From a virus, in the IMG/VR virus record IMGVR_UViG_3300009285_000979, positions 1 through 35,357 of that record: a DNA stretch of 35,357 nucleotides; one strand, given 5' to 3'. Numbering within the stretch: position 1 is the stretch's first letter; every line of letters starts with the position of its first letter. The position numbers and the translations under genes were made by a program. Shown here one piece after another: positions 1 to 35,357 of the stretch. The notes beneath the pieces were generated by a model. It was not told the DNA's origin and did not search any database. It saw only the letters and a list, made by a program, of their open reading frames with translations.

Positions 1-561
1 CTCCCCCCTCTTACCCCCAAGAAAACTACCCAGAAGAGAATACAGAATCTCCCTCCCATTCCTCTAGGAAATATCGTGCAAGAGTCATTACAAGAGGTGC
101 CACAAAGTAGTATCCCCGCCCCCCTAAAGTTCGATTCCGTTGACCAATCCCTCACCGAAGCCCTCGGAGATGCAATCCGGGAGAGCTACCGTGATGACTG
201 GCACTTCGCCGGGTCGATCGACCGGCACTGCCATCAGATGTTCCTGCTGCGGACGAAGGGCAACGGTGAGCTCAAAGGCGGCATCGGGGAGGAACGTATT
301 CGCGCCGTAATCGAATGGCTCCGACACGACGCTTTCTGGTTGCCCAAGGGTAATCTCCGGTCCGTCGATAAGTTCCGGCAACAGTTCCCGCGGTTGGAAA
401 TACAGGTCACGGACCGTAGCAGACCCAGGCAAAACGGGAACCACAGCGGCCCGGCGTACGACGCGGACGAATGGCCCGAGGAAGGCTCAGCTACTGGCAT
501 CACGGAAGCCGAAACTACGGCAATCATAGACGAAATGCAGAGGCAGAAACGTGGACGATGA
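1..561 (+). CDS. Replication initiator, C-terminal part (continues from 34866..35357)
   Basis: The frame is open from base 1 to the TGA at 559-561 and is the same frame as the initiator gene that runs off the right end of the window. Joined, the protein is about 351 residues: winged helix, iteron-coded stretch, Pro-rich linker (around bases 1-75), then this C-terminal region. The segment AFWLPKGNLRSVDKFRQQF (bases about 328-390) resembles the C-terminus of phage initiators that also carry an N-terminal winged helix; that region is thought to contact the loader or helicase. A GTG at 76 could serve as a start if the window were not circular, but it has no clear ribosome binding site. The stop overlaps the GTG of the helicase loader by 11 bases, so the two are translationally coupled, as in lambda O and P. 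The initiator role is inferred from the N-terminal half, the iterons and this neighbour. Confidence 0.75.
   Translation, partial: LPPLTPKKTTQKRIQNLPPIPLGNIVQESLQEVPQSSIPAPLKFDSVDQSLTEALGDAIRESYRDDWHFAGSIDRHCHQMFLLRTKGNGELKGGIGEERIRAVIEWLRHDAFWLPKGNLRSVDKFRQQFPRLEIQVTDRSRPRQNGNHSGPAYDADEWPEEGSATGITEAETTAIIDEMQRQKRGR
19..50 (+). other. AT-richer purine stretch, candidate origin unwinding region
   Basis: About two thirds A+T and strongly purine-biased, in a genome of roughly 60% G+C. It lies just downstream of the iterons once the ends of the window are joined (last half-iteron at 35324-35334). Lambda ori has the same order: iterons inside O, then an AT-rich segment. The role as the melting region is inference. 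Confidence 0.45.
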
Positions 562-1174
562 GCGGCTCCGGCGGCACCTGGAGGCGGCCGGTGTACCGGT
601 CAAGTGCCTCGAATGGACATGGGATCGGCTATCCATAGAATCAGGTAATGCCTCGGCGGTTGCCCGTGCGCGCAAGTACGTCGAAGATCACGAGTGGCGA
701 ACCGGACGCGGCCTCGTTATCATGGGTCCTGTCGGCGTCGGGAAGTCTACGCTCGCCGCCTTGATTCTTACGGACGCGGCCCGCGAGATGGTCGGCGTCC
801 GGTTCGCGGACTCCGAGGCGCTTGTTGCCGAACGAGAAAAGACGGCGGAAGCCTATGCGCCGTACCTCTACCGTGCCGCAATGAACGTGACGCTCCTCGT
901 CATCGACGACATGGCCTGGCACTGGTACCGGGAAGACGCCGAGGGCAAGCGCGTGATCCGACGCGAACTAGAGGCAAATGCCGAACGGCGGCGCATGGAG
1001 AACCTGCTCGTCGGACGTGAGAGCCGGCAACTCGGAACGATCATCACGTCGAACGTGCCGCGGGATGACCTCTTGGCAGTGATTGGCGCCCGACCGGCGA
1101 GCCGCATACAAGAGATATGCGATCTAGTTGTAATTGGCGGACTGGACCGCCGCAACAAATGGAACAAGGAATGA
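551..1174 (+). CDS. DnaC/IstB-like AAA+ ATPase, helicase loader
   Basis: 207 residues. Walker A GPVGVGKST at residues 59-67, Walker B LLVIDD at 115-120, sensor-1 TIITSN at 163-168, and an Arg-rich C-terminal segment (ARPASRIQ near 180-187) of the type that supplies the arginine finger. These are the marks of the DnaC/IstB/DnaA clade of small AAA+ proteins, which load the replicative helicase onto melted origin DNA. The GTG start overlaps the initiator stop by 11 bases. Its position directly after the initiator matches the lambda O-P and plasmid rep-dnaC arrangement. No phage helicase or primase was seen, so the loader probably recruits the host helicase. An IstB-type transposition partner is unlikely, as no transposase is present. 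Confidence 0.9.
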   Translation: MDDERLRRHLEAAGVPVKCLEWTWDRLSIESGNASAVARARKYVEDHEWRTGRGLVIMGPVGVGKSTLAALILTDAAREMVGVRFADSEALVAEREKTAEAYAPYLYRAAMNVTLLVIDDMAWHWYREDAEGKRVIRRELEANAERRRMENLLVGRESRQLGTIITSNVPRDDLLAVIGARPASRIQEICDLVVIGGLDRRNKWNKE

Positions 1175-27887: not shown

Positions 27888-29324
27888 TCATACCCATCCG
27901 ATCACACGTACGCCGCGGGCTTCTGCGAGTTCGCTCTGCGCACCGCTCGCGGCGTCGATCTGGTCGTCATGCGCGGAGTTCGGGAATCCCTCGGCCTCAT
28001 CCAGAAACGCGGGCACCCACGCCCCGGCTACGAGGCAGACGTTCCCCGCCTCGGCGGCGGCGGCAAGCGGGGCCGCGCGGAGGGTCTTACTCGTCGCCTC
28101 CGGCAGCTCCCCGAAATCATATCCGACGAGGATGTGCCGGGCATAGTGGTCGATGGTGCGCTTCCCACCGTCGCCACGGCCCGCAAGCATCCGTATCGAC
28201 GTGCCGGGCGGGTCAAGCCGGGCGGTCTGCTCGACGAGGAGCTCCGCCGCGCGGGAGGTGCCCTGTATACGCCGCACGTCCCGGATGTACCACACGCCTT
28301 CGTGCTCGCCGACGAGCGCACCGGCGAACCAGTCGGGATCGTCGCCGGCGAGCTTCTTCTCCGTCGCGGCGGTGTCCCAGCATCGACACCAGCGACAGGC
28401 AACGGGTGCCTGCTCGACGACGCGGAACCACTCGCGCCGGAACATCGTGCCGCCGGACACCGCGCGGGGGTCCTGCTGGTAAAGGGCGTTGAACCATGCG
28501 GAGCCCTGCGCTCGGCGGATAGATTCCAGTTCGGTGACGGGGTACCGCTCAGGCCAAAGCGCCTCACCGGGCTGGCGCCCGGCGGCGTCGTTCGGCTCCG
28601 CGAGCGCCGGGAAGCTGATCACGGTCCAGTCGGCGTAGTTCTCGTTCCAGCCGGGCGACGTGAGGCGGCCTATGAGGTCCTCCGGGTGCCAACGGGTCAT
28701 AATGACGAGCGTAGTCGCATGGGGTTCGCGGCGCGTGTAGGCGGTCGTTCTGAACCAGTCCCACACGGCGTTACGCACGACGGGGGACATGGCCTCCTCG
28801 TGGTTCTTCAGGGGATCGTCACATATCAGGAGGTCGGCGCCGCGCCCGGTGATGGAGCCGCCGACACCCGCCGTCTTCATGCCGCCACTTCTACCGTCGA
28901 TGTCCCACTCGCTCCGCGCCCCCACGTCCGGGCGGACGCGGACACCGAACAAGTCACCATGCTCGGCCAGTATGTCGCGCACGCGCCCGCCCCACGACTC
29001 TGCGTAGCTCGACTCGTGTGTCGCCAACATCACCCGCCGGTCGGGCCAGCGCCCGAGATACCACGCGCTGTAGTACATCACCGCGAGCGTGCTCTTACCG
29101 TGCCGCGGCGGGAACTGTATGGCGATGTGCCGGCCGCCATGCGCGGCGGCGTCCACGAGTATCCGATTGACCGCGCGCAGGTGCCGTGGCGCCTCAAGCC
29201 GTCCCTCCGTTGTCGCGACCGCCATTGCCAGAGGGCTTGTCGAGGCGGCGTAACAGAGACGCCCGGTCGACAGCCGCAACGCCAGCCGCGACAAGGTCGG
29301 TGCGGGCTTCGTTGTCGAGTGCAT
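27888..29324 (-). CDS. terL: Terminase large subunit, 478 residues
   Basis: ATPase domain: Walker A FPPRHGKST at 71-79, Walker B LLICDD at 165-170, coupling motif LVIMTRWHPEDL at 206-217. Nuclease domain: first Asp in CWDTAATE (Asp317) and the late pair in AHDDQIDA (Asp453/454, Asp457). It cuts concatemeric DNA and drives it into the prohead. The first ATG at 29324 overlaps the small subunit by 131 bases; an ATG at 29225 would overlap by 32 but neither has a strong ribosome binding site. Confidence 0.94.
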   Translation of the reverse strand: MHSTTKPAPTLSRLALRLSTGRLCYAASTSPLAMAVATTEGRLEAPRHLRAVNRILVDAAAHGGRHIAIQFPPRHGKSTLAVMYYSAWYLGRWPDRRVMLATHESSYAESWGGRVRDILAEHGDLFGVRVRPDVGARSEWDIDGRSGGMKTAGVGGSITGRGADLLICDDPLKNHEEAMSPVVRNAVWDWFRTTAYTRREPHATTLVIMTRWHPEDLIGRLTSPGWNENYADWTVISFPALAEPNDAAGRQPGEALWPERYPVTELESIRRAQGSAWFNALYQQDPRAVSGGTMFRREWFRVVEQAPVACRWCRCWDTAATEKKLAGDDPDWFAGALVGEHEGVWYIRDVRRIQGTSRAAELLVEQTARLDPPGTSIRMLAGRGDGGKRTIDHYARHILVGYDFGELPEATSKTLRAAPLAAAAEAGNVCLVAGAWVPAFLDEAEGFPNSAHDDQIDAASGAQSELAEARGVRVIGWV

Positions 29325-31641: not shown

Positions 31642-31736
31642 GCAAGGGAAGGAGTAAGACATGGAATACCCTGTCCTGAGCCACGCGGACCTTGACCGCC
31701 TTCACGGCGAAATGGTCGCGGGCTTGTGGGTACGCC
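31642..31736 (+). repeat. 95-base direct repeat, left block (second copy 31981..32075)
   Basis: Covers the ribosome binding site and first 25 codons of two neighbouring paralogous genes, with three mismatches in 95 bases. A matching right block exists at 31894..31995 and 32206..32307 (two mismatches). The middles differ. Confidence 0.9.
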
Positions 31737-31996
31737 AGGTGATACGACCATATGTCGAGTTCGAAGTATCCCCGCCGACCCATATCTCGACGGTCATATG
31801 GGTAAAGCGGGGATCATGGTTCCGCCGTTTGTTCGTTCAGTCGCGACTCTGCGTAACGCCAGATGCACTACGATCTAGCCGGGTGCATCTTTTTCGCGGG
31901 TTCGCAAACCCGACGGGCTCCGCGTTCGCCGCTGACTGTCCTCTGTGGCTCGATGCGCGCGCACGGGCCGTTATAGCCTCGCAAGCGAAGGAGTAA
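31661..31996 (+). CDS. Tandem paralog A, 111 residues
   Basis: The first 25 residues (MEYPVLSHADLDRLHGEMVA and on) and last 34 (FRGFANPTGSAFAADCPLWL and on) are nearly identical to paralog B. The middle (about 26-77: IRPYVEFEVSPPTHISTVIW) is unrelated to that of B. Unrecognised. Its stop codon lies inside the ribosome binding site of B (ggagtaagacATG). Confidence 0.75.
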   Translation: MEYPVLSHADLDRLHGEMVAGLWVRQVIRPYVEFEVSPPTHISTVIWVKRGSWFRRLFVQSRLCVTPDALRSSRVHLFRGFANPTGSAFAADCPLWLDARARAVIASQAKE

Positions 31997-31999
31997 GAC

Positions 32000-32308
32000 A
32001 TGGAATACCCTGTCCTGAGCCACGCGGACCTTGACCGCCTTCACCGCGAAATGGTCGCGGGCGTGTGGGTACGCCCTGTTCTCGAAGACGGCGGCGCGAC
32101 GGTTACCTGGTCAGAACGAGGTTCCGGGCCGGCGGCGCAACGGTCTAAACGGCCACCGTGGCTCTTGGTACATCTTGATGCTCTGCTTGGTCGAGTTCAG
32201 CTTTATCGCGGGTTCGCAAACCCGACGGGCTCCGCGTTCGCCGCTGACTGTCCTCTGTGGCTCGATGCGCGCGCACGGGCCGTCATCGCCTCGCAAGCGA
32301 AGGAGTAA
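32000..32308 (+). CDS. Tandem paralog B, 102 residues
   Basis: Ends identical to paralog A, with a different, Gly/Pro/Arg-rich middle (about 26-68: EDGGATVTWSERGSGPAAQR). The constant ends with a variable middle suggest exchange of a cassette after a recent duplication. No known domain. Confidence 0.75.
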   Translation: MEYPVLSHADLDRLHREMVAGVWVRPVLEDGGATVTWSERGSGPAAQRSKRPPWLLVHLDALLGRVQLYRGFANPTGSAFAADCPLWLDARARAVIASQAKE

Positions 32309-34729: not shown

Positions 34730-34749
34730 CGCGCCCGGCGGTGTACCCT
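34721..34749 (+). promoter_or_regulatory. Promoter of the replication initiator
   Basis: TTGACA (34721-34726), 17-base spacer, TACCCT (34744-34749). The -10 and the bases after it read TACCCTTTACCC, which contains the CCCTTTA arm of the iterons in the gene. A binding site here would block RNA polymerase, the classic arrangement for initiator autorepression. Confidence 0.7.
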
Positions 34750-34771
34750 TTACCCGTCGAACAGGAGTGCG

Positions 34772-34865: not shown

Positions 34866-35357
34866 ATGGCCGACGAGTCCCCGGTTCCCCGTTTCAACGC
34901 GCTCACCGCACTCCGCGAGTTCATTGACCTCGGCCTATACGTTAGGTTCGGGGTGTCGGCCGGGAACGTCTGGCAATACCTCGTTGTTCGGGCCGACAAG
35001 ACGGGCCTCTGCTTCCCCCCGCTTCCACGGATTGCGCATGACCTCGGCTTCGCCGAGAACACAGTACGAACCGCGCTTCGCCGCCTCGCGCCGATCCTAT
35101 CAGTCGAAGCAAAAGGGAATGGGCGTGGGCACCCAACTCAGTACCGACTTGCCTGCGATCTGTCGGAAAGGGTGCAACAGATGAACCCTTTACAAAGGGT
35201 GCAACAGATGAACCCTTTAGACAACATGCCCACGGGACGGGCCATGCAGACCGTAAAGGGTGCAACCGTTGAACCCTTTAGCGCGACAAAGGGTGCAAAA
35301 TATGAACCCTTTACGCCCTCGATAAAGGGTGCAAATGACGTTCCCCCCGTTCCCCCC
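34866..35357 (+). CDS. Replication initiator, N-terminal part (continues at 1..561)
   Basis: The ATG has acgagg 6 bases upstream; the frame stays open to the window end and continues from base 1 to 561. Residues about 25-100 are a winged helix: VWQYLVVRADKTGLCFPPLP, RIAHDLGFAENTVRTALRRL, then a GRGHPTQYRL wing, as in HTH_36-type phage and plasmid initiators. It should bind the iterons in its own gene. Residues about 100-155 are encoded by the iterons and read as two different peptide repeats, since the DNA repeats lie in two frames. It is preceded by its own promoter and structured leader. Confidence 0.82.
   Translation, partial: MADESPVPRFNALTALREFIDLGLYVRFGVSAGNVWQYLVVRADKTGLCFPPLPRIAHDLGFAENTVRTALRRLAPILSVEAKGNGRGHPTQYRLACDLSERVQQMNPLQRVQQMNPLDNMPTGRAMQTVKGATVEPFSATKGAKYEPFTPSIKGANDVPPVPP
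35167..35334 (+). repeat. Origin iterons: four palindromic 26-base repeats plus a half copy
   Basis: Copies at 35167-35192, 35194-35219, 35255-35280, 35288-35313 and a left half at 35324-35334. Each has the form AAAGGGTGCA, five to six variable bases, TGAACCCTTTA, an imperfect dyad. Copies 1-2 start at codon position 2 (reading RVQQMNPL), and copies 3-5 at position 3 (reading KGA..EPF). With the AT-richer stretch at 19-50 and the loader gene this is the likely origin of replication. Confidence 0.82.

Follow-up and report, generated by a model that had tools for sequence, protein, structure and literature searches.

The stretch of DNA analysed here (the window, 35,357 nt) ends inside a gene that we interpret as encoding a replication initiator. 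This gene opens with an ATG at position 34866 and is still open at the last base of the window, where the reading frame continues from position 35357 into position 1 and yields a protein of 350 aa; the end of the window is thus not the end of the gene. The join was deduced from the open frame and IMG/VR classes the record as linear, and a C-rich run inside the gene is apparently where the contig was broken. The genes and features at the locus are as follows.

34742-34751, minus strand: half site with one mismatch, AAAGGGTACA, in the 136-nt gap upstream of the initiator gene (motif scan)
34866-35357, plus strand: initiator gene, first part, 164 codons to the window end (ATG at 34866; HTH_36 match of the joined protein)
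34953-35157, plus strand: winged-helix DNA-binding domain (AlphaFold2 with 42 relatives, mean pLDDT 88.4)
about 35055-35084, plus strand: recognition helix, within the winged-helix domain
about 35118-35132, plus strand: wing, GNGRG, with the wing G-R at least 90% conserved
35167-35192, plus strand: candidate dyad iteron 1 (sequence scan)
35194-35219, plus strand: candidate dyad iteron 2, identical to iteron 1 (sequence scan)
35255-35280, plus strand: candidate dyad iteron 3, in the other codon frame (sequence scan, codon phase)
35288-35313, plus strand: candidate dyad iteron 4, in the other codon frame (sequence scan, codon phase)
35324-35333, plus strand: single half site AAAGGGTGCA, second arm missing (sequence scan)
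1-561, plus strand: remaining 186 codons of the initiator gene, encoding the O-like C-terminal domain (in-frame join across the contig ends)
10-150, no strand: AT-richer stretch behind the iterons, candidate unwinding element (AT about 0.47-0.57 versus 0.38 regionally)
551-1174, plus strand: DnaC-like AAA+ helicase loader (PHROG 50, E=1.6e-25)

The joined protein matches HTH_36 (E=5e-6) and the O-like profiles of PHROG (PHROG 391 and related profiles, 4e-8). Its C-terminal part alone also matches the O-like profiles (5e-6 to 2e-3, with 1.5e-3 for the profile 'replication initiation O-like'), and in a single BLASTP comparison the C-terminal segment is 30% identical to lambda O over 53 aa (E=5e-4). 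The Pfam family PF04492 (Phage_rep_O), with which lambda O itself scores 6e-36, was not detected in the window protein, which matches HTH_36 instead. We therefore regard this protein as one that would work like lambda O rather than as a demonstrated member of that family. The model of the DNA-binding domain was built from an alignment and supersedes a single-sequence fold of the 164-aa part, which was unusable (pLDDT 41). Foldseek returned generic winged-helix proteins as the top matches of the modelled fold, with E values no better than 5e-3. The gene directly 3' of the initiator encodes a helicase-loading protein of the DnaC-like kind and not lambda P itself.

Similarity searches with these sequences returned little. 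Neither the initiator nor the loader has close relatives among the viral contigs, tblastn of the initiator against isolated phages gave only weak C-terminal matches to 'RepA-like' initiators of Gordonia phages, and blastn of the array against phages gave no useful match. A sequence search of solved structures found no match, and plasmid relatives of the HTH domain amounted to four weak matches.

The sequence-only reading had placed five copies of a dyad in the initiator gene. A scan of the window found four full 26-nt dyads and one half site between 35167 and 35333, all inside that gene, the copy at 35324 being the one that is only half. A full dyad reads AAAGGGTGCA-N5-TGAACCCTTT (TAAAGGGTGCA-N5-TGAACCCTTTA type), and the four, starting at 35167, 35194, 35255 and 35288, are 92-100% identical over 26 nt. 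Exact AAAGGGTKCA half sites occur nine times within 167 bp and nowhere else in the 35,357 bp; with up to one mismatch there are 11 in the window versus 1.7 expected, and none of 100 shuffles reached 11. Counted from the ATG at 34866, copies 1 and 2 lie in codon phase 1 and are translated as RVQQMNPL, and copies 3 to 5 lie in phase 2 and give KGATVEPF, KGAKYEPF and KGAN. The peptide KGA..EPF, which had been assigned to the last three copies, thus holds for the third and fourth; the fifth reads on as KGANDVPP. Because near-identical copies in two codon frames yield unrelated peptides, the conserved level is the DNA, as had been proposed. If the repetition instead served the protein, or were a functionless repeat element hitch-hiking in a linker (linkers generally tolerate insertions), unrelated peptides from different frames would be hard to account for, as would the relatives L340 and L350 described below, in which the copies have switched together to a new word; the probability of this explanation appears negligible.

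An origin within an initiator gene has a well-known precedent. In the lambdoid phages the origin lies in the middle of gene O and is made up of iterons bound by O together with an AT-rich tract; mutating the iterons without altering the O protein abolishes replication (PMC7466680). In the lambda genome (NC_001416) we located the four iterons at codons 117-144 of 300, where they occupy three codon phases, so the mixing of frames belongs to the archetype. The window shares with the lambda origin the mid-gene iterons, their form as imperfect palindromes in several frames, the AT-rich tract behind them and the adjoining helicase-loading gene, and its protein shares with lambda O a related C-terminal domain. 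The rise in AT content adjoining the window iterons is modest. The two systems differ in iteron word (ATCCCTCAAAACGAGGGA in lambda versus TAAAGGGTGCA-N5-TGAACCCTTTA), in iteron size (18 versus about 26 nt) and in spacing, which is an even 20-24 nt in lambda but 27-61 nt in the window, and the window further departs from lambda in its N-terminal HTH_36 domain, in the undetected PF04492 and in its DnaC-like loader. Origins of the plasmid iteron type (RepE/Pi) are likewise built on arrayed sites for the initiator, each about 22 bp long. Plasmid iterons, however, normally lie outside the rep gene, unlike those in the window.

The lambdoid layout, the precedent for frame-mixing in lambda and the AT rise behind the array lead us to take the dyads as candidate initiator-binding iterons. 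Judging from the sequence, the locus is in all likelihood (probability about 0.88) a replication origin of the lambda type, located within the gene of its own initiator; the lambda-like origin that the sequence-only reading had proposed, with an AT-richer stretch and a helicase loader downstream, is thus supported by the HTH_36 domain, the O-like C-terminus, the loader, the iterons within the gene and the AT rise. The mechanism is of a known kind. The N-terminal winged helix would bind the AAAGGGTKCA half sites, each dyad probably taking up a dimer or two monomers, and a complex spanning several dyads would, by analogy with lambda, put strain on the AT-richer DNA immediately 3' of the array and so open it. 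The O-like C-terminal domain and the DnaC-like loader would then deliver the host's replicative helicase. The sites probably fall in the stretch that encodes the linker between the two protein domains and, since the protein sequence of a linker is free to drift, the DNA sequence could be kept in whichever frame it lies. The array, its place, its independence of frame, its recurrence in related initiators and the change of its copies in concert are all observed. In the open-access literature, outside which most of the classical lambdoid work lies, we found no description of a AAAGGGTGCA iteron at a phage origin or of its wide distribution; the papers listed as containing the string bear unrelated titles, and the other matches there were lambda-type and plasmid work only. 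A minimum of cumulative GC skew had been expected near 35.2 kb and is absent: the curve is lowest at 29.2 kb and highest at 9.8 kb. Both extrema coincide with switches in gene direction, so that skew is uninformative about the origin.

Alternatively, the repeats might serve as operators and not as an origin, with the HTH protein or a repressor using them to control transcription through the gene of the HTH protein itself. A generic winged helix as the binding domain would suit an operator, as would the one-mismatch half site at 34742-34751. The sites in the array, however, lie at least 300 nt inside the gene, away from the promoter, and the protein has an O-like C-terminus and an adjoining loader. 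Upstream sites, moreover, occur only at chance level across the relatives, which does not fit a general operator. We therefore consider control of transcription an unlikely role for the array. The upstream half site itself is possibly an autoregulatory operator in this phage only; a sigma-70 promoter scan of the region upstream of the initiator gene found no match.

The repeat had been described as unfamiliar, but it is in fact common to many phage initiator genes. We collected at least 312 loci by scanning viral contigs for the dyad and both viral and genome contigs for spaced copies, and assigned genes with an HTH profile seeded with eight of the array genes. At least 143 loci, the window included, have AAAGGGTNCA arrays inside HTH initiator-type genes just behind the DNA-binding domain. 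Among the matches listed, 71 of the 72 loci with five or more sites lie in such a gene, and 132 of the 143 have same-orientation sites in more than one codon frame. In these 143 listed loci the array extends, by the medians, from 36% to 47% of the gene length, and its sites are most often 21-22 nt apart in direct orientation. Directly behind the array the AT content is on average 0.10 higher (32 representative loci). The HTH domains of this motif-led set are only 15-33% identical to that of the window. Matches consisting of a single dyad with no further sites were mostly chance palindromes, and loci with two sites were often chance or low-complexity repeats. Not every one of the 143 genes need encode an initiator, as some adjoin genes of other kinds (at L160, a terminase gene). 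Two near-identical loci (L116:7075-7130 and L195:2343-2398) have three AAAGGGTGCA sites in a genuine PF04492 Phage_rep_O gene, as tested for L116, and the word thus crosses into the Pfam family of lambda O.

Two further loci are among the systems closest to that of the window. The 'DNA replication protein O' gene of the isolated Bordetella phage vB_BbrS_PHB09 (MN103401) has AAAGGGTGCA behind its winged helix, as in the window, but mostly as direct repeats of 21-22 nt rather than as dyads, and no helicase loader is annotated beside it. IMG/VR contig 3300010397_001068 (L040) has five full dyads at the same position in the gene, in all three codon frames, and a DnaC-like loader downstream; its initiator HTH is about 21% identical to that of the window, its inner half reads TGCACCCTTT and its spacer is 6 nt. 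Arrays with three or more dyads are rare among the matches listed (the window, L040 and L017). Another conceivable role of the dyads is to form hairpins in the mRNA of the initiator, controlling translation or the transcript. Read from the sequence, each window dyad could form an RNA stem of about 9 pairs, but in most relatives the half site recurs in direct orientation, 21-22 nt apart, without a partner. What is conserved is therefore the DNA word and not the pairing, and a hairpin function seems exceedingly improbable.

The same 10-mer is also arrayed in other phages behind the N-terminal HTH of terminase small-subunit genes (L101:2350-2404; also L145, L183, L191, L239, L282, L284, L292, L294 and L162), so the motif alone is no proof of an origin. 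These arrays may be packaging (pac) arrays, and the window array could be thought of as another. The copies in the small-subunit genes are spaced by 22-23 nt and read in two codon frames, with three of them in the genes of the Lactobacillus type, and at L160:4551-5240 an HTH gene with a AAAGGGTGCA array stands directly before a terminase large-subunit gene, so that its product may be a packaging protein rather than an initiator. The array gene of the window, however, encodes an O-like C-terminus and has a helicase-loader gene after it, no terminase domain matched it among domain and PHROG profiles, so that it does not belong to the class of terminase small subunits with repeats, and the large terminase gene of the window is 6 kb from the array on the other strand (27888-29324). 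A packaging site is thus a very improbable account of the window array. Among isolated records, that large terminase is best matched, at 41% identity, by a virus that is assigned to Methanomicrobiales.

As the motif-led set had been found by its motif, we searched further by protein alone. With one HTH sequence as the query, 29 of the 31 loci found have the array directly behind the HTH domain, although the 31 are fairly close kin and should not be counted as so many independent cases. The two exceptions have an array at the same place and with the same geometry but with one changed word in all copies, AATGGGTGCA in L340 and AACGGTGACA/AAGGGTGACA in L350. An HTH-profile search of 200 Burkholderiales genomes gave 25 distinct further genes. 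In 12 of them an 8-mer is repeated at least four times behind the HTH domain, a level of repetition seen in 0.16% of codon shuffles and in no control segment out of 228, and the repeated word differs in nearly every gene. The scheme also fits Mesorhizobium phage vB_MseS-P1, with the word AAGGGTGACAC, and Arthrobacter phage RedFox, where AACGGGGTG recurs at 22 nt. Because the word switches in all copies together beside a DNA-binding domain that also changes, these results point to recognition of the word in trans by the adjoining domain. One locus, L367, has twelve copies of GTGGTGAA behind the HTH, mostly 21 nt apart and hence mostly in one codon frame; in this exceptional case repetition at the protein level is also possible.

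We also compared the residues of the winged helix with the words beside it. The wing arginine is present in 39 of 43 AAAGGGTGCA initiators versus 4 of 21 initiators with other words, and a tyrosine in the recognition helix in 31 of 43 versus 1 of 21, counts that ignore kinship and come from sets sampled differently, so that their p-values are indicative only. The sole tyrosine-bearing initiator with another word is L340, whose word differs by one base. The window initiator keeps the wing Gly-Arg and does not have the helix tyrosine. We treat this association of residues with words, drawn from sequence comparison, as a lead. Tentatively, and at somewhat less than even odds, AAAGGGTKCA may be the commonest of a readable set of iteron words in a very large, cross-phylum group of winged-helix phage initiators, in which a few residues (wing Gly-Arg, recognition-helix Tyr) would set the word. 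If so, the specificity of an origin could be predicted from protein sequence. The lambda-type reading itself would extend the textbook lambda origin to a large group of phages and prophages, for the most part unannotated, and would supply a simple rule for finding their origins, namely a word repeated in the initiator gene immediately after the winged helix. Since close kin carry fully switched arrays (L340 and L350 versus their neighbours), the evolution of specificity between initiator and origin is testable.

Two further observations concern repeats of other kinds. In Tannerellaceae genome contigs (L202, L243, L255 and L279), AAAAGGGTGCACCCTTTT-like palindromes are clustered where no ORF of at least 100 aa covers them. 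In the window, two adjoining ORFs at 31661-32308 have near-identical starts (MEYPVLSHADLDRLH...) and near-identical ends and are apparently a tandem gene duplication.
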